Source: Flammeovirgaceae bacterium
Lineage (GTDB): Bacteria > Bacteroidota > Bacteroidia > Cytophagales > Cyclobacteriaceae
Direction: 5' to 3'
DNA length: 64,000 nucleotides
Assembly (NCBI GenBank): GCA_027487845.1
Contig: JAIYCV010000018.1
Coordinates: forward strand, 1 to 64,000
Part shown: piece after piece, positions 44,637 through 64,000 of the stretch
Layout of the letters: each line of letters begins with the position of its first letter
Numbering within the stretch: position 1 is the stretch's first letter
Notes under the pieces: model-generated
The model's database searches: none
What the model saw: the letters and a program-made list of their open reading frames with translations, nothing else
Told to the model about the DNA's origin: nothing
Translations under genes and position numbers: made by a program

Positions 44637-45809
44637 TCATTTCAACCCCAGCGAGATGAGTATCCCTTCATCGGTTTCCGGTTTCGACCGATCATTGTTA
44701 GAATAGGTTGTTAGCCCAAATCCATTATCATATTCCCACATAGCCCAAGGTATATTGTTTTGCTCTAGTGCCAAACGCATGTCGCGAATCCATGCCAGCC
44801 GGCTGGAGCGGCTAGTGAAGGGTTTATACGCACCAAATTCATTGCAGGTGACTAGTACGTTGTATTTCTTCGCCCAAGTATCAACCGGTTTTGCCCAGTT
44901 TTTCATACTGTCTAAATTGTAATTTTGCTTTCCATACCATGTGAGCGCATCTTTTAAACTTTGAACGGAGGTTGATTTAACAAGCGAATCGATCACTGAT
45001 TGTTTGCTCGGGTAAGGGACAGCTCGCGCGGTAATTGCCGGCTCCCAACCAGCCCAGGTTGCTCCTTGATGCGTGAACAAAAATGGATCATAGGTATGAA
45101 AATTATAGATGATGTTTGTTTCCCCGTAAGGAACCATCGAAATCAGGTTGGTTCGTCCATTCCATTCTTCAGCTCCCGCGATGATGTAATGGTTGGCAGT
45201 AACCTGGCGGATGGCTCGAACAAGTTTCAATTGAACTGGCCACCACCAAGTTACATTCAAATTGTTAAATTTCGATGTGCCTACATGCGGTTCATTGTAC
45301 ACTTCAAAGTACATCTTATCGGTAGGATATTTGGAAAAGTATTGAGCCAGAGCTTTCCAATAGGCTATTGCTTTTTCATCGTAGCCAGCGCTGGTGGCAA
45401 GATTTTTCTCAAAAGCTTCATCCGAATTATGAATGCCATCAAAGACTACAGCAAGACCTGCATCAATAATTATTTTGACAGCATTATCAACGTAGGCAAG
45501 ATTGATTGCCGTTAATTGCGAGGGGTTGTTAGCTTGAAATAATACATTGGTGGCTATGGGCAGGCGCACATAGGTAAAACCCTGCGCTTTGATTCGCGCC
45601 ATATCCACAGAATTGAAGCGAGTGCTATATTGACTAGAGCTCGAATAATCGTTAAACCAATTTTCTAGGTTAATTCCTTTGGCCAGGGCTTTTCTGACTG
45701 TCTCCGCAGTTATAGGTGTGCCAATGTTATTATTGATTATTTCTGTGGGCTTTTCACATGACGCAAAAAGGGTGACTAGCAGTATTAGAAAAGTAGTTAC
45801 GTTAATCAT
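44637..45809 (-). CDS. GH5 family glycosidase, lipoprotein
   Basis: A 390-residue cellulase-like (GH5) enzyme. The acid/base Glu is in MYFEVYNEPHVG, the nucleophile Glu in LVTCNEFGAYK, and the strand motifs YVRLPI and IIYNFHTYDPF fit the clan A TIM barrel. The N-terminus has a signal and lipobox (LFASC). I use the ATG at 45807-45809; an upstream TTG codon lies inside the promoter box. Likely substrate is a beta-glucan or mannan. It lies alone and not in a polysaccharide locus. Confidence 0.9.
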   Translation of the reverse strand: MINVTTFLILLVTLFASCEKPTEIINNNIGTPITAETVRKALAKGINLENWFNDYSSSSQYSTRFNSVDMARIKAQGFTYVRLPIATNVLFQANNPSQLTAINLAYVDNAVKIIIDAGLAVVFDGIHNSDEAFEKNLATSAGYDEKAIAYWKALAQYFSKYPTDKMYFEVYNEPHVGTSKFNNLNVTWWWPVQLKLVRAIRQVTANHYIIAGAEEWNGRTNLISMVPYGETNIIYNFHTYDPFLFTHQGATWAGWEPAITARAVPYPSKQSVIDSLVKSTSVQSLKDALTWYGKQNYNLDSMKNWAKPVDTWAKKYNVLVTCNEFGAYKPFTSRSSRLAWIRDMRLALEQNNIPWAMWEYDNGFGLTTYSNNDRSKPETDEGILISLGLK

Positions 45810-45812
45810 ATT

Positions 45813-45820
45813 CAAAGATA
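45813..45820 (-). promoter_or_regulatory. Promoter box of the GH5 gene
   Basis: The minus strand reads TATCTTTG, a perfect match, ending 3 bp before the ATG. If used, the transcript would be nearly leaderless. Confidence 0.4.
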
Positions 45821-53543: not shown

Positions 53544-56500
53544 ATGAAGAAATTTTTACTTACGAAATTTCTCTTGCTGTTGCTAATTAGCAGTGCTGCA
53601 TGGGCGCAAGAGAAAACGGTATCGGGTAAGGTCACTTCGTCTGAAGACGGAACTGCTTTGCCGGGTGTGAGTGTGCTTTTAAAAGGCACAGCAAACGGAA
53701 CTGTTACAGACGCAGAAGGCAAATATAGCCTTTTGGTGAGCGGTGGCGGGAGTCAATCTTTGGTTTTTTCGTTCATCGGTCTAAAATCCACCGAAGTTGA
53801 GATCGGTGAACGTTCAGTGGTGGATATTTCGTTAGGCTTAGACGTGACGCAACTTTCGGAAGTAGTGGTAGTGGGTCAAGGAGCTGCCAAAGAAAAGAAA
53901 GCCTTGGGCTATGCCGTGTCGACAGTTGGTGCTGACCAGCTTGCTGCCCGCCCACAGCAAGATGTTGCCAGAATTTTGCAAGGAAAAATTCCAGGAGTCA
54001 ATATCTCGCCTACTGGTGGTACTTCCGGATCGGGATCAAGCATAAACATTAGAGGGTATAGTTCTTTGAGCGGAAGCACGCAACCTCTTTTTGTCGTGGA
54101 CGGTGTTCCGTTTAACTCGGGAACTAACAATGGGTCTGATTTTGCTACAGGTGGAGCCGCAGGTACTCCAAGTCGCTTTAGTGATCTAGACCCGAATAAC
54201 ATACAGACGTTAAGTGTGCTGAAAGGATTGGCGGCAACCGTGCTATATGGAGATCAGGGACGAAATGGCGTGATTCTTGTCACAACAAAATCTGGAAAGG
54301 GTAAAAAAAACGCAGAGCTGACTGTTCAACAAACGGTCAATATTACAGAGGTGGCCTCATTGCCGAAATTTCAAAATTCTTGGGGAAACGGATTTCAAGG
54401 TCTATACGGGGCCTTTTTTAGCAATTGGGGTCCTGGCTTTTCTGAGATTGATTCGGTAGGGCATCCATATCAATTTTTAGGCTCAGCCTCACTTCGAGAT
54501 GCTTACCCACAATACCTTTTCAATAGAATCAAATATGACCCAGCACAAGATATCAGCAAATTCTTTCGCAAGGGAGTTGCTTCTAATACGTATGTGAATT
54601 TTTCTGGCGGAAGCGATAAAGTTGGATTCAACTCTTCTGTTTCTTATACGAAGGAGCAGGGTTTTGCTCCAGGCAACGATCAGACAAAACTAAATCTTAG
54701 TTTAGGTATTAACGCCACAATAACAAGTAAATTAACTCTACAGAATAGCATTCTGTTTTCGGTAAATAATGTGATCCAGCCGCCTCTGAATGGAGCCACA
54801 GGTGGTGGTGGAACGTTCAATGGAGTTCCCTCATTGTATGGGCAATTCTTATATACCCCACGTAACTTAGATATATTTGATTGGCCGAGTGCTACACCAG
54901 ATAATAGAAGCATTTACTACAGAGGAGGAAATGATATTGCTAATCCGCTTTGGATTGCGGACAATTACAAAGAACTGAATAATACGACAAGGGTATTTAA
55001 TTCAACAACATTGTCGTATGATTTAACTGATAATTTAAGTTTTTCATACAGAATGGGTTATGATACTTACACGGAGGCCCAAGAACGGAAATTTAATAGG
55101 GGAGGGGTGCAAGGTCCCAACATCATTAACGGTGTTTACCAAACTCAGACGGTTCGTAACCTGATTTTTAATCAGGATTTCATTGTTAGTTTCAATAAGG
55201 AATTGAACCAAAATTTTAACTTATCTGCCCGTGTTGGATTTAATGCACGGAATGATCAATTTAAGCGCGATGGTTTATATTCTGAGGGTCAGGCGATCGA
55301 TAACTTATTTAGGCATTACAATTTCTCCACTGCATCCGCGAGAAGTATTGGATTTTCGGATACTCCTGCCAATGCCCGAATCTTGAATAGGGAGACAGAG
55401 GAGCAACGAATGGGGGTGTATGGAGACTTTTCCTTAGACTATAAACAGTATCTTTTTTTAAACCTTGCTGGTAGAAATGATTGGACCTCAACCCTAGAAA
55501 CTGCCAATAACAATATATTCTACCCAAGTGCTTCGGTTTCCTTTATACCCACAGAAGCTTTCGCGGGAATCAAATCGAGCACTTTGAGCTATTTGAAATT
55601 CAGATTCGGTTATGGAACTTCGGCCGGATTTGCCCCTTTCCCATATGGGACGAGATCAGTTGCTTCCTTAAACACGCGTGGTTTTGTTGATTTAACTGGC
55701 GCACCCACAACAGTAAACTCAATCGGGAATTTCTTGGGAAATGCAAATTTGAGACCTGAGCTACAACAAGAAATTGAAGTAGGTTTAGATGCGAAGTTGC
55801 TGAACGATCGAATTGGAGTAGATCTAACCTTCTATGATCGCAGCACAAAAGATTTGATCACAGAAGCGCCATTAGACCCTTCCACTGGCTATACTAGAAC
55901 GTTAACTAATGTCGGGAAGCTAAGCAATAAGGGTGTTGAATTGGGTCTTAACGGAAAGATCTTAAATGGAGGTGCGTTTCGTTGGGATGCTACCCTAAAT
56001 TTTAATATTGTTCGACCTGAAATAATTGAGTTAGGAAGCAGCTTGTCTGAGGTAGTTATTGCTGGATTTTCAAATCGGGGCAATTTTGCAATTCCAGGCC
56101 GCCCCTACAATATTATCAAGGGTAACGCAGTAAGGAAATCACCTGATGGACAAAGAATAGTGAGGGATAACGATGGTCTTTATGCTGTCGACCCGATTAT
56201 TCAAGAGATCGCGAATCCTAATCCAAACTGGACTACTTCCTTATTCAATACCTTCACCTATAAAGGTTTTGCACTAAACATTCAGGTGGATTACCGTCAA
56301 GGTGGTCAAATGTATGCTTCCACACCTTCGGCAACAATTGGTCGTGGTACAGTATCTACCGATGTCGAATATGGCTACGATCAAACATTTATTCTACCTG
56401 GAGTTCTTGAATTTACTAACGCAGATGGAACGCTAGGATATCGCAAAAACGATAAGCAAGTTACTGCCTCAGACTATGGATTCAATGTCCAGTTCAACGG

Positions 56501-56780
56501 AACAGATGATACCTCCATTTTTGATGGCACTACAATTCGTTTACGTGAAGTTTCATTAGCCTACGAATTACCTAAAACGATATTCGGCAAAACTCTTTTC
56601 AAATCGGGTTCTATTCAGCTTAATGGAAATAACCTGTGGTTCAGGGCAGTCAATGTACCGGCAAACGTCAATTTCGATACTGAGGTATTAAGCACTGGTG
56701 TAGGTAACGGTGCCGGATTTGATTATTTGACCGGCCCCAGTGCAAGGCGATACGGTGTCGTGCTGAAACTTACTTTCTAA
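53544..56780 (+). CDS. SusC/RagA-type TonB-linked outer-membrane transporter (system 1)
   Basis: A 1078-residue outer-membrane receptor. Signal peptide (1-22), carboxypeptidase-regulatory-like domain (about 24-110, with VSGKVTSSEDGTALPGVSV), plug domain (about 125-235, with DVARILQGKIPGVNISPTGG) and a 22-strand barrel ending in aromatic LKLTF. It imports oligomers captured by the SusD-like lipoprotein encoded 20 bp downstream, powered by TonB. No glycosidase is coupled, so the substrate is unknown. Confidence 0.93.
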   Translation: MKKFLLTKFLLLLLISSAAWAQEKTVSGKVTSSEDGTALPGVSVLLKGTANGTVTDAEGKYSLLVSGGGSQSLVFSFIGLKSTEVEIGERSVVDISLGLDVTQLSEVVVVGQGAAKEKKALGYAVSTVGADQLAARPQQDVARILQGKIPGVNISPTGGTSGSGSSINIRGYSSLSGSTQPLFVVDGVPFNSGTNNGSDFATGGAAGTPSRFSDLDPNNIQTLSVLKGLAATVLYGDQGRNGVILVTTKSGKGKKNAELTVQQTVNITEVASLPKFQNSWGNGFQGLYGAFFSNWGPGFSEIDSVGHPYQFLGSASLRDAYPQYLFNRIKYDPAQDISKFFRKGVASNTYVNFSGGSDKVGFNSSVSYTKEQGFAPGNDQTKLNLSLGINATITSKLTLQNSILFSVNNVIQPPLNGATGGGGTFNGVPSLYGQFLYTPRNLDIFDWPSATPDNRSIYYRGGNDIANPLWIADNYKELNNTTRVFNSTTLSYDLTDNLSFSYRMGYDTYTEAQERKFNRGGVQGPNIINGVYQTQTVRNLIFNQDFIVSFNKELNQNFNLSARVGFNARNDQFKRDGLYSEGQAIDNLFRHYNFSTASARSIGFSDTPANARILNRETEEQRMGVYGDFSLDYKQYLFLNLAGRNDWTSTLETANNNIFYPSASVSFIPTEAFAGIKSSTLSYLKFRFGYGTSAGFAPFPYGTRSVASLNTRGFVDLTGAPTTVNSIGNFLGNANLRPELQQEIEVGLDAKLLNDRIGVDLTFYDRSTKDLITEAPLDPSTGYTRTLTNVGKLSNKGVELGLNGKILNGGAFRWDATLNFNIVRPEIIELGSSLSEVVIAGFSNRGNFAIPGRPYNIIKGNAVRKSPDGQRIVRDNDGLYAVDPIIQEIANPNPNWTTSLFNTFTYKGFALNIQVDYRQGGQMYASTPSATIGRGTVSTDVEYGYDQTFILPGVLEFTNADGTLGYRKNDKQVTASDYGFNVQFNGTDDTSIFDGTTIRLREVSLAYELPKTIFGKTLFKSGSIQLNGNNLWFRAVNVPANVNFDTEVLSTGVGNGAGFDYLTGPSARRYGVVLKLTF

Positions 56781-56800: not shown

Positions 56801-58918
56801 ATGAAGCACTTTAAATCATTTTACATAGCAGTTTTAATAATCTTGGCTACTTCGTGTAAGCTAGATTTGTTAGACGATCCAAACGCAGTAAAGCTTACTT
56901 CCACTGGACCGAGCCTATTGCTGAATAATATTCAAATCGATTTGGCGGATTTTTTTAACAGAGCCAGTACTTTTGGAATGCAAATGACACGCCTTCAAAA
57001 CTCAGGAGGCTCTGTCTATGAGAATTTCGCAAACCCGCAGTCTTTTGACCAAATGTGGTCTATTGGCTATGCTAACGTGTTGACGGATTGTGATATTTTG
57101 ATTAAGCAGGCGGATGAAAATCGTTTTACCGTTCATGCTGGGATGGCTCGCATTATGCAAGCCTATACGTTATCCGTTTTAGTCGATTACTTTGGAAACG
57201 TCCCTTTCTCGGAATCTTTTAAGGGACTTGAAAATCTTAATCCAAAGGTTGACAAAATGGAGGATTTGTATCCTGCCATTATCGCAATTCTAGACAAATC
57301 TCTTTCAAATTTAGCAACAACAACAGTGCCCAACGCATTGGCTCCCGCAATAACCGATTTCTACTATGGAGGAAGTATAGCGAAATGGAGAACATTAGCC
57401 AATTCTTTGAAATTGAAAATGGGACTCAATTTGAAAAAGGTGGACCCTACGCGAGCGGTTAAAACAATTAATGAAGCCTTGACCGCAGGTGTAATGAGTG
57501 CCCAAGGAGACAGTTTTGTATTTAGGTATGCAACCAATAATGCTGATCCAGACGTTAGGCATCCTAGATTCACCGGGAATTATATTACTGGCGCGGGAGA
57601 CTATATGGCCAATTACTTAATGTGGCAGATGTTTTACGGGTATGACATGACTGATCCGAGAATGAGATTTTATTTTTACCGGCAAAGAGGGGCTAATTCA
57701 TCCGATCCTAATGAAATTCGATGCGTGGCTCAGACGGCTCCGACTCATTATCCATTCTCTACAGGAACTGCCATTGTGTACTCACCAACTCCTGGAGATC
57801 CTACCAGAGTACCTCCCGGTATTTCCTCAAATCCAGGGAGTCCAGCGTGGAGTAGAACATTTTGTTTCCCGACCCCAGTAGGCTATTGGGGTCGTGAACA
57901 CGTGGATCCTCAAGGTATTCCTCCTGACGGATTAGCTCGGACAACATGGGGTTCATACCCTGCAGGTGGTCGCTTTGATGCAAATGTAAACGGGGGCGCT
58001 AACAATCCTGCCTTGGGTATGAGGGGTGCCGGAATTCAGCCGATTTTAATGCGCTCAGCTATAAATTTTATGCGCGCTGAGATTGCATTGTCTCCCGAGT
58101 TGGCTGGCGCTGCAACCGCTGGGCCAGCAGAAACTCAGTTTGATTTGGGTGTCAAAAACTCATTGGCTGATGTGCGTGATTGGGCAATCAACGGTACTCT
58201 CGGGACAAATGCATTCGGTGCAGCGCCAGCCGAGACAGCCACAATCAACGGTTTTTTTCCTGTTACCGGAACGGTTCTCACAAACGTACGTGTAGCTACT
58301 ACTGCGAATTTGGCGACCAGATCGGGATTATTAACCGTAGATGGAGTTACCTTGGCTGAGGGTGATCGTGTATTAGTGAAAGATCAAACGACAGCCAGTC
58401 AGAATGGGATCTATGTTGCAGCGGCAGGTACATGGACTCGATCATCAGATGCCGACACAGGAGCAAAACTACTTTCCGCGACTGTTACCGTTTCAGAAGG
58501 GACAACCAACCGCACGGCTCGATTCGTTCAGATAACAACGGGTACTATTAATGTTGATACTACTACTCCTGCGGCTACCGCGATTAATTGGAGGTCTCCG
58601 TTGGCGGATGAAATTGCAAGATACACCGCGCGTGCCAATGCTGCCTTTGCTGGTGCAACGTCCAACGCGAAGATGGATTTTGTTGCGAGAGAGTATTGGA
58701 TTTCACTCTTTGGTTCTGGTGTTGAGGCATATAACCTTTACAGGCGCACCGGGTTGCCCAACGGAATGCAACCTACTGTTAACCCCTCACCTGGAGCATT
58801 TCCAAGGACTTTTTGGTACCCAGCATCTTTTGAGGGCAGAAACTCTGAAGTTCAGCAGAAAACGAACCTTACTGGTAAAGTATTCTGGGATACATTTGAT
58901 ACTAAACTTGACTTTTAA
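56801..58918 (+). CDS. SusD-like lipoprotein with an inserted phage-tail-like domain
   Basis: A 705-residue substrate-binding lipoprotein (lipobox LATSC, Cys19) of the SusD-like_2 type: FFNRASTFGMQMTRLQNSGG, GMARIMQAYTLSVLVDYFGNVPFS and the C-terminal EYWISLFGSGVEAYNLYRRTGLPNGMQPT. The family is normally about 450-550 residues. Between the Ala/Gly-rich linker near 470-490 and the ADEIARYTARANAAF helix (602-616) there is an extra segment, residues 496-600, unlike SusD and like domains of phage tail or structural proteins. Confidence 0.9.
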   Translation: MKHFKSFYIAVLIILATSCKLDLLDDPNAVKLTSTGPSLLLNNIQIDLADFFNRASTFGMQMTRLQNSGGSVYENFANPQSFDQMWSIGYANVLTDCDILIKQADENRFTVHAGMARIMQAYTLSVLVDYFGNVPFSESFKGLENLNPKVDKMEDLYPAIIAILDKSLSNLATTTVPNALAPAITDFYYGGSIAKWRTLANSLKLKMGLNLKKVDPTRAVKTINEALTAGVMSAQGDSFVFRYATNNADPDVRHPRFTGNYITGAGDYMANYLMWQMFYGYDMTDPRMRFYFYRQRGANSSDPNEIRCVAQTAPTHYPFSTGTAIVYSPTPGDPTRVPPGISSNPGSPAWSRTFCFPTPVGYWGREHVDPQGIPPDGLARTTWGSYPAGGRFDANVNGGANNPALGMRGAGIQPILMRSAINFMRAEIALSPELAGAATAGPAETQFDLGVKNSLADVRDWAINGTLGTNAFGAAPAETATINGFFPVTGTVLTNVRVATTANLATRSGLLTVDGVTLAEGDRVLVKDQTTASQNGIYVAAAGTWTRSSDADTGAKLLSATVTVSEGTTNRTARFVQITTGTINVDTTTPAATAINWRSPLADEIARYTARANAAFAGATSNAKMDFVAREYWISLFGSGVEAYNLYRRTGLPNGMQPTVNPSPGAFPRTFWYPASFEGRNSEVQQKTNLTGKVFWDTFDTKLDF
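58286..58600 (+). other. Domain insertion resembling phage tail/structural protein modules, inside the SusD-like gene
   Basis: Encodes residues 496-600. The run VRVATTANLATRSG, then TVDGVTLAEGDRVLVKDQT, ASQNGIYVAAAGTWTRSSDAD and a closing strand region matches the pattern I know from phage tail-fibre and other structural proteins. The match rests on recall of the family pattern; no database was searched. In frame, no stop, no repeats at the edges. Confidence 0.65.
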
Positions 58919-58938: not shown

Positions 58939-60072
58939 ATGAAATTTAGAAAATATACGTTATTGACAGCATTTCTATTAGCTGTTGTAGTGATTGGTTG
59001 CAGAGACAAAGATTTGTATCCACTTCCGTATGATGACAGGGAAGTCGGTGCTTACATGCGTTTGTATTCGTTAACATCGAACATCATTGATTTGAATGAC
59101 CTCGCAAATAGTGGATTGGACGCTACTTTTGAAGCCGTAGATGATAATGGCGGAAACAATCTGCAGGAATTCAGAATATTCGTTTCACACAGAAGGAGTA
59201 CTGCGTTGTCAAAGGAAGTACTTGTAAAGACCATTCCTGGTTCAGCTTTCACAAAAGTGCCAGAACCCACTTTCTCAGAGTACACTCGGGCTAAAGTCAG
59301 AGTTTCAGCAGCCGAATCACTTACAGCGCTTGCTTCATCTCAAAATTCGGGCTTTCCTGGTGCTTTTGCCAATGCGGATCAGTTGACTTATCGAGGTGTC
59401 ATGGTTCTTAAAGATGGGCGAGAATTTACCAGCACGAATACTACGCCAAACATCACCGGGGGTCAGTTTTATAGTGCTTCATTCTTGTATACTCTGACGA
59501 TTAGAAATCAAACTACCGCGAATTCATGGATAGGGCAATATTCACTGGCGCAAACTGCAATTTGGTCTCCAAATCACTCACCCGCTTTGCATGCAACACC
59601 ACAATTCCCTGCTTATCTTGCTGAGCGTTTGTTTCCTAATCAAACTGTTACACTAAGTATCCCCGCGGGAGGTTTGTCTACAGAAAGGCAATTCACTGTA
59701 AATTATAAAGGACAAAACGTAACTTTGAGGTTTAACTTGGAGCCCGCTCCAACCGCAGCTGCACCCACCACTGGATCGGTATTTATTCCGTTACAAAACT
59801 CGACTGTGGATTGCAGCTCTGAAAGGGAATTGTATTGGACAATGCCGACCGCAGGTTCTTTCGGAAGTACTGCTTCACCTCCGCCAGCGTATACAAATAC
59901 ACTTCTGCCCGGGGGAGTAACTGCTAACCAAGGATCTTACAACACCTCTCAAAACGGCTTGGCGGTGGGTAATTCACTGAGCATTGGCTTAGATGACGAT
60001 GCAGACGAGTATGGAAGACGAAATGGTTATTGCACCTGGACTCGAAGAGTGCGGTTAACTTTGACTAGATAG
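58939..60072 (+). CDS. Third gene of SUS system 1, lipoprotein of unknown function
   Basis: A 377-residue lipoprotein (VVVIGC, Cys21). The protein is strand-rich and has a Ser/Thr- and Pro-rich C-terminal half. It may be a surface glycan- or peptide-binding accessory, like the extra lipoproteins in other SUS operons, but no domain is recognised. It is 20 bp behind the SusD-like gene and is followed by a strong terminator, so it closes the operon. Confidence 0.72.
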   Translation: MKFRKYTLLTAFLLAVVVIGCRDKDLYPLPYDDREVGAYMRLYSLTSNIIDLNDLANSGLDATFEAVDDNGGNNLQEFRIFVSHRRSTALSKEVLVKTIPGSAFTKVPEPTFSEYTRAKVRVSAAESLTALASSQNSGFPGAFANADQLTYRGVMVLKDGREFTSTNTTPNITGGQFYSASFLYTLTIRNQTTANSWIGQYSLAQTAIWSPNHSPALHATPQFPAYLAERLFPNQTVTLSIPAGGLSTERQFTVNYKGQNVTLRFNLEPAPTAAAPTTGSVFIPLQNSTVDCSSERELYWTMPTAGSFGSTASPPPAYTNTLLPGGVTANQGSYNTSQNGLAVGNSLSIGLDDDADEYGRRNGYCTWTRRVRLTLTR

Positions 60073-60134: not shown

Positions 60135-60292
60135 GTCAAAAATCGCAAATTATTTTTTTTACATAAAAACCCTCCGAAATCGGTAGAATATTTGCTTTCT
60201 AGGTCTATTTACGACAGCTTATTTTTAATAATTTGGTAATGTTAGGCAGTATCCCCTATATTTCAGCCTATTTTAACCTAAATTTATTTATT

Positions 60293-63200
60293 ATGAAGAA
60301 AACTCTACTAAGAAGAATCTTCTTTGTGCTTTCACTGCTGATATGCAGTTCAGCATGGGCACAAGAGAGGACGGTGACTGGCAAGGCCACTTCGAAAGAT
60401 GATGGCAACGGTAGCCCCGGGGTAAGCGTCCAAGTAAAAGGAACTACCGTGGGAGCTATTACAGATGCAAGTGGAAACTACGCAGTTTCAGTTCCCGCGG
60501 GAGCAAACACATTGGTGTTCACTTTTATTGGCTACAAAACAGCCGAAGTTGAAATTGGCGACCGAACTGTCGTTGACGTAGTTCTTGAAACGGATGTAAC
60601 TCAACTAAACGAAGTTGTAGTCAGCGGGTTGGGCTGGCAGGCAGATACCCGCACGTTGGGATATTCCGTTGCGAATGTAAAAAACGAAACCTTGAATCAA
60701 GCCAAAGCCTTAAACGTGTTTACGGGTCTGTCAGGGAAAGTTGCGGGTCTTCAGATCAGAACAACTGGTAACGGTATAAATCCCTCTACGCGGGTTACGT
60801 TGCGCGGTAATCGGTCGTTGACAGGTAATAATCAAGCACTTGTAGTGTTGGACGGCATCATAGTTCCTAACGGTACGCTCAATTCGATCAACAACAATGA
60901 CATTGAGAACGTGACTATTTTGAAAGGAGCAAGTGCTGCCGCAATTTATGGTTCGGATGCTGCCAATGGCGTTCTTCTTGTTACTCTCAGAAAAGGAACT
61001 GGCAAAACACCAGAGATAAATTTCTCGAATACCACGCAATTAGAAACAGTGAGCTATTTACCAGCTTTTCAAACAGGCTGGGGAGCAGGAACAAATGCAT
61101 ACAGCCGAGGCTACATTCCTTATGAGAACCAGTCTTATGGGCCAGCATTCGATGGCTCTATAGTTGACTTAGGAAAGCCGAGAGAAGACGGTACCATCCA
61201 AAAAGGCATTTATTCGGCTAAGCCAAATGCAAAACGAGATGTTTGGAACACGGGTGTTACTCAACAAAACTATTTGTCTTTTTCTGCGGGCGATGAAGAT
61301 AGCCGCTTTGATATGTCTTTGCAAAATGTTTCTCAAACAGGCGTGGTTCCTGGAGATAAATACACTAGAACGGGTGGTCGCTTTGCAGGGTCACAAAAGG
61401 TAGGAAAGTTTCAAGGTTCATTTAGTGCCCTGTACAACGCTACTCAGACCGATCAAAACGCCAACTTCGGCCTAAATAACAACGGCTCTACGTTCGTCAA
61501 TGTGGGAGGCAATGGTTTCTATTGGGATGTGATTAATTCGGCAGCGAATATTGATTTAAATTCTTATCGCAACTGGAGAAACTTCAAAAATGACGATGGA
61601 TCCCTCAATGACGGCAATCCGAATAATTATTTCAACGACTATTATGCGAATCCATGGGTAGGTTTAGATTCCTATCGCGCAAAATCTACAGGAAGCGAGT
61701 TTACAGGTAATGCACAAATTAATTTTAAAGCAACTGATTGGTTGAATTTAACCTACCGGGTGGGCTTAACAAGCAACTCCACTTTTGGAAAAGCAACTAG
61801 TGAGCAATTTAATTACCGTGATTATGCGGCTAAAACTATTTACATAGCACGCGCAAATGTGCCTGGTTACGTTGGCGAGAACTCATTTAATCAAAGACGC
61901 ATTCAGTCCGATTTTTTTGCCTCTTTTAACAAGACTTTTAGCAAACTTGATGTGCAATTAATTTTAGGTACTCAAGTAACGGATGACTTGACGAAAGGCA
62001 TCAACATCGCTTCGACTAATTTGGTTGTACCTGGAGTTTATAACGTGAGCAACAGGACGGGCGAACCAATCGCGAGCGAGGTCAATTTTAATTCTCGCAA
62101 GTTTGGTGTGTTCACCGATTTTTCGGTCACTTACAATAATCTTTTAACTCTGCATTTCGCAGGGCGAAATGATCAGACATCTTTGTTGGCTAAGGGTAAC
62201 AACACCTATTTTTATCCTGCGGTAGATATGGCCTTTATTGCTACTGATGCATTTCCAGCTTTAGCTAAAGGTAATATTCTCAGTTATGCAAAGTTAACTG
62301 CTGGGTTCGCTCGAGTTGGCCAAGTAACTGTATTACCCTATTCACTTGAACCTGTTTTCAATCAGGGAGGTGGGTTTCCATACGGTGGCCGGGCTGGTTT
62401 CTCTATCGGAAACAATTTGCCTGACGGAAATTTAAAGCCAGAATTTACTAGCAATATTGAATTTTCTGGAGATTTTAAATTGTTTGACAATAAAATTGGA
62501 TTGAACCTGACTTACTACAAGCAAAATTCCACTAATCAAACAGTAAATATCGCTACATCTTCAGCTACTGGATATACAAGTGCTACAATTAATGCTGGTG
62601 AGATTGAGAATTCGGGAATTGAAGTTGAAATTGACGCAAAGATCGTTAAAACTCCAAAGGGTTTCGAATTTGGCGCAAATTTGAACTATGCAAATAGAAG
62701 CACGTTAGTAGTTTCACTATATCAGGGCCTAGACGAGTTGAATTTGGGGAATAATATTTTTGCTGCCGTAGGTCAGCAATACCCAATTGTAAAAGTCGAT
62801 GCGTACAAAAAAGATAATCAAGGAAGAGTAATTGTAGACTCCAAAACTGGCTATCCGCTCAACAACACAACGGGTCTAGTGAATGGTGGACAAACTGAGC
62901 CTAAGCATGTCTTTGGGATTTCCCCTTATCTGAAGTACAAAGGGTTTAGATTGGATTTCACCGCAGAATATAGAACTGGTAATGTTATTTGGAACAATAG
63001 TGGGGAGTCCATGACATTTACGGGCGTTTCAAAAATCAGTGATAGTTATGGAAGGGAGAGATTTATATATCCTAATTCCGTTTTGGAGACGGTCAATACA
63101 GATGGATCATCCACCTACACACCAAACACAAGTGTTGCAGTTGAAGATGGAGGTTTAGGTTTCTGGGATAACCATTTTGATGATGTTTCACAGAATTTCG

Positions 63201-63460
63201 TGACCAGCGCAGCATTTTGGAAATTAAGAGAAGTTTCTTTTTCTTATTCATTGCCAAAATCGCTACTAGGTAAAACAAAACTCATCAAGAAGGCCTCAAT
63301 TGGCCTAGTGGGTAGAAATTTGCTCATGTTTTTACCGAGCTCTAATCTCTACACCGACCCTGAGTTTAACTTAGGAACAGGCAACTCCGTGGGTGTTAAT
63401 AGTATATCCATCACTCCTCCCACAAGAACGTACGGGATTAATTTGGACCTAACTTTTTAA
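60293..63460 (+). CDS. SusC/RagA-type TonB-linked outer-membrane transporter (system 2)
   Basis: A 1055-residue receptor with the same layout as system 1: signal peptide (to SSAWAQ), carboxypeptidase-regulatory-like domain (VTGKATSKDDGNGSPGVSVQ), plug (LNVFTGLSGKVAGLQIRTTG) and barrel ending in LDLTF. The N-terminus is close to that of system 1, while the barrel differs, so they are paralogues rather than a recent copy. I use the ATG at 60293; the frame upstream to 60233 lies in the leader. Confidence 0.93.
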   Translation: MKKTLLRRIFFVLSLLICSSAWAQERTVTGKATSKDDGNGSPGVSVQVKGTTVGAITDASGNYAVSVPAGANTLVFTFIGYKTAEVEIGDRTVVDVVLETDVTQLNEVVVSGLGWQADTRTLGYSVANVKNETLNQAKALNVFTGLSGKVAGLQIRTTGNGINPSTRVTLRGNRSLTGNNQALVVLDGIIVPNGTLNSINNNDIENVTILKGASAAAIYGSDAANGVLLVTLRKGTGKTPEINFSNTTQLETVSYLPAFQTGWGAGTNAYSRGYIPYENQSYGPAFDGSIVDLGKPREDGTIQKGIYSAKPNAKRDVWNTGVTQQNYLSFSAGDEDSRFDMSLQNVSQTGVVPGDKYTRTGGRFAGSQKVGKFQGSFSALYNATQTDQNANFGLNNNGSTFVNVGGNGFYWDVINSAANIDLNSYRNWRNFKNDDGSLNDGNPNNYFNDYYANPWVGLDSYRAKSTGSEFTGNAQINFKATDWLNLTYRVGLTSNSTFGKATSEQFNYRDYAAKTIYIARANVPGYVGENSFNQRRIQSDFFASFNKTFSKLDVQLILGTQVTDDLTKGINIASTNLVVPGVYNVSNRTGEPIASEVNFNSRKFGVFTDFSVTYNNLLTLHFAGRNDQTSLLAKGNNTYFYPAVDMAFIATDAFPALAKGNILSYAKLTAGFARVGQVTVLPYSLEPVFNQGGGFPYGGRAGFSIGNNLPDGNLKPEFTSNIEFSGDFKLFDNKIGLNLTYYKQNSTNQTVNIATSSATGYTSATINAGEIENSGIEVEIDAKIVKTPKGFEFGANLNYANRSTLVVSLYQGLDELNLGNNIFAAVGQQYPIVKVDAYKKDNQGRVIVDSKTGYPLNNTTGLVNGGQTEPKHVFGISPYLKYKGFRLDFTAEYRTGNVIWNNSGESMTFTGVSKISDSYGRERFIYPNSVLETVNTDGSSTYTPNTSVAVEDGGLGFWDNHFDDVSQNFVTSAAFWKLREVSFSYSLPKSLLGKTKLIKKASIGLVGRNLLMFLPSSNLYTDPEFNLGTGNSVGVNSISITPPTRTYGINLDLTF

Positions 63461-63478
63461 ATCCAAAAGAAACTAACT

Positions 63479-64000
63479 ATGAAACTAAAAATATTTTTAT
63501 TAAGCGTAATGACGCTTTCGGTGTTTAGTTGTGACGACTTTGTCGACATCAACAAAAACCCAAATCAAACCACCACCTCCACTCCAGAGCTTGTTCTATC
63601 TGCTGCTTTGAATGCAACAAGCAGTCAATTGTTTTTCAATCAAATGGGTGCTTTCTGGGCTGGTCAATGGTGTCCTTCGGGCGATGTGTCTGGATTTATT
63701 GCCGAAAAGACCTATGACCTCAATAATACCTATGGCACAGGAATCTGGACCGGTGTTTACGATAATCTTATCGACTACAAATACATTGTTACCGAGTCGC
63801 AAAAGACAACTGGCAAAACAGCTATTGGTGCCATTGCACGAATCATGACTGCCTTGCTTTATCAACGTCTTGTAGACACCTATGGCAATGTTCCTTATAA
63901 AGATGCTTTGCAAGGAACCGAAGTTATACGTCCAACTTATGATGATGCAAAAACGGTCTACGAAGCCAATATTGAGGAAATAGACGCAGCAGTTGCTATT
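63479..64000 (+). CDS. SusD-like lipoprotein (system 2), truncated by the window end
   Basis: The first 174 codons are present, starting with the ATG 18 bp after the SusC stop. A lipobox (SVFSC, Cys18) is followed by DFVDINKNPNQTTTSTPELVLS, a typical SusD-like_2 start, and VDTYGNVPYKDAL. It runs off the right edge, so its length and any insertion like that of system 1 are unknown. Confidence 0.9.
   Translation, partial: MKLKIFLLSVMTLSVFSCDDFVDINKNPNQTTTSTPELVLSAALNATSSQLFFNQMGAFWAGQWCPSGDVSGFIAEKTYDLNNTYGTGIWTGVYDNLIDYKYIVTESQKTTGKTAIGAIARIMTALLYQRLVDTYGNVPYKDALQGTEVIRPTYDDAKTVYEANIEEIDAAVAI

Follow-up and report, generated by a model that had tools for sequence, protein, structure and literature searches.

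A phage-type beta domain at one site of a SusD-like lipoprotein, present and absent among related alleles

A SusC-SusD operon and the segment within its lipoprotein

The window, which is the whole stretch of 64,000 nucleotides that was analyzed, contains a SusC-SusD operon whose lipoprotein partner carries a segment of unusual character (Table 1). The SusD open reading frame is intact. By the features tested, its product is a SusD-like_2 protein with a domain known mainly from the phage virion. The whole protein matches Pfam SusD-like_2 at 3.4e-44 (151.8 bits against a cut-off of 27; best stretch, residues 32 to 294) and also Pfam SusD-like (best stretch, residues 71 to 304). Its core has the fold of solved SusD proteins, the SusC gene lies directly upstream, and Cys19 is likely, judging from the sequence, to be the lipid anchor. 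The protein resembles the known SusD-like_2 and SusD-RagB lids (PF12771 and PF12741; BT2259, 4q69; BT2263, 5fq4) in Pfam assignment, SusC partner, and core fold, and differs from them in having about 105 phage-type residues in one loop.

Table 1. Features of the SusC-SusD locus in the window
Feature	Position	Strand	Evidence
SusC/RagA-family TonB-dependent transporter, SusD partner	53544..56780	+	TIGR04056, 2.8e-168; Plug and beta-barrel Pfam
SusD-like_2 lipoprotein, 705 aa, bearing the inserted domain	56801..58918	+	
Phage-type beta domain insert, residues 496-600	58286..58600	+	PHROGs, 9nx3, pLDDT, BFVD
377-aa lipoprotein gene, next after SusD	58939..60072	+	No family match

A SusC match was found at all of 29 related loci, whether the slot for the domain was filled or empty, and tblastn gave a relative of the 377-residue lipoprotein in 24, a protein for which the Pfam and PHROGs scans returned no match. 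Ten neighboring open reading frames yielded no structural PHROG families, and hence no phage or prophage gene cluster surrounds the window SusD; their PHROG matches were only to elongation factor, folate, QueE-like, chorismate-binding-type, and OmpA-type families. No degrading enzyme was found among the operon neighbors scanned, and no substrate is indicated by the genes scanned around SusD. A second SusC/SusD pair lies directly downstream (window positions 60233 to 64000), and the second SusD of the contig (L176:3480-5036), complete at 518 residues, belongs to SusD-like_2, lacks the insert, and has no PHROG match. The minus strand encodes a GH5 cellulase-family gene at positions 44637 to 45815, far upstream of both SusCD pairs.

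Residues 496 to 600 had originally been predicted, from sequence motifs that are indeed present there, to be a phage tail-like domain interrupting the lipoprotein. The PHROGs scan and an AlphaFold model both bear out a separate segment. In the model, helices at residues 479 to 485 and 601 to 618 flank a beta domain, so the predicted borders were right to within a few residues, and pLDDT is 86 to 95 in each 10-residue block across residues 501 to 600. The segment alone also folds in prediction, at a pLDDT of 92.2. A self-contained beta domain is thus seen in the models of the whole protein and of the isolated segment, as expected for an independent domain. Against Pfam, the segment alone gave only two matches, both under the cut-offs, and no carbohydrate-binding family was matched. 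The domain has no Pfam model, though a search with the segment alone matched 4741 proteins at E<=0.001, with SusD Pfam domains in 17 of the 120 listed.

Kinship of the segment with phage and viral domains

The proposed relationship to phage tail-fiber and structural proteins proved strong in PHROGs, in the solved structure 9nx3, in a phage collection, in viral contigs, and in BFVD. Ten PHROG families were matched by the whole SusD protein, and all of these matches begin at residues 475 to 496. The best were to tail fiber family 11518 (8.3e-25), virion structural family 24595 (1e-24), and head decoration family 2647 (7.8e-17). The PHROGs scan of 13 SusD proteins that lack the domain, among them the contig's second SusD, gave no match at 0.001. 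A single solved relative was recovered by sequence at E<=0.001, the capsid decoration protein 9nx3 (1.6e-6).

The domain matches 91 records of the phage collection, only one of which reaches 80% query coverage. The best record, a Synechococcus phage tail fiber, shows 64% identity over 71% of the query, and ORF 074 of cyanophage P-SS2 shows 56% identity over 76%. The latter is named a capsid decoration protein in PMC2784084. The domain is thus like the phage tail-fiber and head-decoration domain, represented by these three PHROG families, 9nx3, and P-SS2 ORF 074, in both sequence and predicted fold. Of the 600 candidate stretches listed from viral contigs, 599 code for a relative. BFVD yielded 86 viral structures at E<=0.001, the best superposing with a TM of 0.89 and an rmsd of 1.0 (predicted folds). 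The BFVD matches include proteins named Mimivirus, Indivirus, and Marseillevirus, so the domain is not confined to phages. The window SusD has one copy of it, while 103 non-SusD proteins among the matches listed, in a listing that favors multicopy proteins, have two to four each.

Eight non-SusD open reading frames from the genome samples were compared with PHROGs, and all match domain-bearing families. Two of them (L170 and L174) match further phage families outside the domain; for most of the others the PHROG matches run through the domain, and the phage label therefore leans on it. At loci L041, L042, and L043 of family-level genomes, the domain is again found in open reading frames. Next to these lies a putative Tc-toxin A-type reading frame in L041 and L042 and a putative injection-system baseplate-type reading frame in L043.

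Presence, absence, and exchange among SusD alleles

The segment is no ordinary part of the SusD-like_2 fold, as had been anticipated. A homologue search scored on residues 20 to 470 only, which keeps the domain from biasing it, yielded 352 proteins. Within the best 120 of these 352, the domain is present in 32, as one copy at one site, and absent from 88; it is likewise absent from 24 of the 29 related loci. A query spanning the slot, which is biased toward carriers, added 54 proteins, two of which were dropped because they had no SusD domains. In the combined set, 52 of 172 proteins are carriers with one copy each, and by alignment the site is the same in 52 of 52, a count limited by the fact that predicted proteins cannot reveal broken copies of the domain.

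It had also been proposed to look for the domain in related species, where it proved to be present in SusD genes of other assemblies and absent from most relatives. Of 62 genomes of the genus, 17 gave a match to the SusD at E<=1e-80. The full domain is found in the window's own assembly and four others, 11 matches end before the domain, and in one (G1078) a contig end cuts inside it. A scan of genome contigs gave 29 loci, with the full domain in four (L045 to L048), one cut by a contig end (L059), and none in 24; the five domain loci come from the same assemblies as the five genus relatives, and the two counts are not independent. The recurrence of the segment in SusD genes of other assemblies shows that it is no artefact of one assembly. 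The domain is rare in wider, mutually overlapping genome samples: it occurs in 4 of 395 genomes of the class sample, 9 of 390 of the family sample (five in SusD), and 6 of 395 of the phylum sample (two in SusD).

Filled and empty slots occur in close alleles. Identity over the N-terminal core (N-core) between a protein with the domain and one without it is 94.3% for P0009 and P0125, 90.1% for P0117 and P0126, and 87.8% for P0172 and P0201. Core trees were built with the domain columns cut out, as quick trees with one support value. On the tree of 120 proteins there are 13 presence changes, 12 of them forced by starred branches, and on the tree of 169 proteins (three short rows excluded) there are 25, of which 23 are forced. 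Presence is nonetheless clustered on both trees, none of 500 shuffles being as low. Within 51 carriers, identities correlate at 0.75 between domain and N-core, at 0.84 between N-core and C-terminal core (C-core), and at 0.91 between the two halves of the N-core. The clustering and these correlations indicate that alleles inherit the domain and that much of its history is vertical.

Exchange is evident in mosaic alleles. P0009 is 96 to 100% identical to the domain-free P0125 over residues 20 to 420. Over residues 421 to 660 it is instead 86 to 97% identical to the domain-bearing P0008, with P0125 at 55 to 79% where comparable outside the domain. Over residues 661 to 705 it returns to 98% identity with P0125, against 60% with P0008. 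P0009 is a plain mosaic, a domain-bearing tract within the backbone of a domain-free lineage. The tract extends past the columns cut out for the core tree; the core itself thus recombines, which is a limit of the core trees. The second case is the window SusD and P0115, which are 94.6% identical in the N-core, 100% in the C-core, and only 71.9% in the domain (25 differences in 465 positions of the N-core against 27 in 96 of the domain; p 1e-9). With a domain:core ratio of 5.2 they rank first among the 496 pairs of the 32 carriers, for which the median is 1.10 and the 5 to 95% range is 0.77 to 1.66. P0009, P0125, P0008, and P0115 are single proteins known without their DNA, for which a chimeric assembly is possible.

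The domain exchange with a prophage that the original prediction had raised is therefore correct as to exchange; the pattern suggests that it ran mostly from SusD allele to SusD allele, and not from phage each time. Within its own genome, the domain gave one match at E<=1 (an assembly of 4.55 Mb in 51 contigs, from which an unassembled repeat could escape), and no further copies that might act as a silent donor or shufflon cassette were found in this assembly. With one copy in the genome, other strains are a likelier source of exchanged sequence than silent copies are.

The mosaics also bear on the idea that the domain was gained once, long ago, and has since only been lost, many times over, with no exchange. 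The SusD copies do lie close together on two of the trees of the domain itself, needing one change on a tree of 258 rows (support 68) and one on a tree of 96 rows (72/86). Both P0009 and the window SusD/P0115 pair nevertheless need exchange, and the empty loops of distant clades, by reading of the alignments, share a short motif resembling FYPAA.YTTDV. We regard this simple history as very improbable.

Two further domain trees, a larger one of 366 rows and a smaller one of 64 rows, need three changes (one forced) and two changes, respectively, and no domain tree strongly supports one SusD clade. One to three changes on these trees, against 25 on the core tree, point to one to a few captures and to donors that were mostly other SusD genes. 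Several separate captures from phages, all into one SusD loop, would agree with the 64-row tree, where one SusD clade appears in 0 of 200 bootstrap trees, and with flanks that differ between subtypes. It would also agree with the position of P0237, P0239, and P0243, longer SusD proteins of 760 to 768 residues with their own domain subtype, which adjoin a viral copy in the 366-row tree. In the 64-row tree, though, the group lies amid other SusD copies and a single clade is compatible with the data (AU p 0.49), and so few changes are needed on all four trees that repeated capture seems improbable. The domain of P0237, P0239, and P0243 is possibly a separate capture. The probable history is one or a few acquisitions from phages, followed by transfer mainly between SusD alleles.

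A possible role on the outer face of the lid

Our preferred explanation as a whole, to which we assign a probability of roughly 60%, joins phage capture and allele exchange with an outer-face module that changes what docks. A phage virion domain would have entered one loop of a SusD-like lid, by a single capture or a few, in a Cyclobacteriaceae-like group of Bacteroidota, the direction of transfer presumably being from phage to SusD. Afterwards it would have become an optional cassette, inserted into empty alleles, removed, or replaced by another version. The swaps would come about as SusD alleles recombine in the SusD sequence flanking the domain on either side, leaving the SusD fold and the SusC-SusD operon unchanged throughout. 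The capture and exchange part, taken alone, is highly probable, and it has direct support in the phage kinship, the independent fold of the model, the one fixed site, the presence and absence in close alleles, and the mosaics.

The closed SusD lid over SusC encloses the substrate (PMC7782687), and the most likely place for a folded insert of about 100 residues is therefore the outer face of the lid. There it would alter docking, whether as accessory capture, as a spacer, or as a cover against phages. The role that we favor, as a guess, is that of an accessory module on the outer face, affecting the docking of nutrient, particle, or phage, with selection presumably keeping both filled and empty states. 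Capture of nutrients or particles, protection from phages, and a mere passenger are indistinguishable on present evidence.

The added glycan- or surface-binding function originally suggested is possible. Accessory capture would mean that the domain attaches to glycan, protein, or particle surfaces and supplies SusCD, its use being limited by substrate and its presence patchy as a result. The domain lies within the substrate-capturing lipoprotein of an intact SusC-SusD operon, and the SusC partner persists at every related locus. In addition, one pair of loci (L047 and L048) indicates purifying selection, with dN/dS of 0.094 in the domain, 0.04 in the N-core, and 0.024 in the C-core, thin evidence from the one pair among those tried with unsaturated synonymous sites. 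The lack of a carbohydrate-binding Pfam match and of a degrading enzyme among the operon neighbors scanned weighs on the other side, and we hold this role as tentative. A tolerated, useless insert that hitchhikes on SusD recombination would account for the many losses and gains and for the majority of relatives without the domain. A single site in all carriers, as far as predicted proteins can show, and the low dN/dS of the domain in the one usable pair speak against it, and it is in our judgment improbable.

The domain might otherwise shield or alter SusCD against phage docking, fluctuating phage pressure keeping both alleles. Presence that switches often on the core tree and an origin in surface-contacting virion parts would suit such a cover, as would the inversion of clusters with SusD-like proteins in Bacteroides intestinalis (PMC8375218). 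The domain is not faster-evolving than the core in general, however, as the median ratio of 1.10 shows, and we think a cover unlikely. To the same degree we doubt the more specific proposal that a phage-derived fiber or decoration domain serves as removable camouflage of the receptor, polymorphic because phage docking on SusCD changes. Frequent gain and loss fits changing selection; the domain itself changes at a moderate rate, which fits strong diversifying selection on it poorly.

Variation of SusCD-type receptors has precedents. RagAB of Porphyromonas gingivalis, a receptor of this type, and so one like the family of the window SusD, varies between strains (PMC11817032), and the inverting Bacteroides clusters mentioned above contain SusD-like genes. 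What varies here, by contrast, is whether one site holds an entire foreign domain, of which no second copy was found in the window's own genome. No description of a phage domain in SusD was found in the literature searched, which was covered in part, so that an earlier report is possible; PMC10316084, as far as its available text goes, is not about a SusD insert. The findings suggest that bacterial surface receptors can take up a piece of a phage as an optional module, and the repeated gain, loss, and swapping among relatives is more striking than the insertion itself. A slot filled or empty in close alleles would directly exemplify the reuse of virion parts on a bacterial receptor, and receptor change would then come by domain insertion and allele exchange, not by point mutation. 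Near-identical lids with and without the domain are natural pairs for testing an extra surface domain on SusCD. For the window SusD, the nearest empty homologue in the set is P0123, with an N-core identity of 76.8%.
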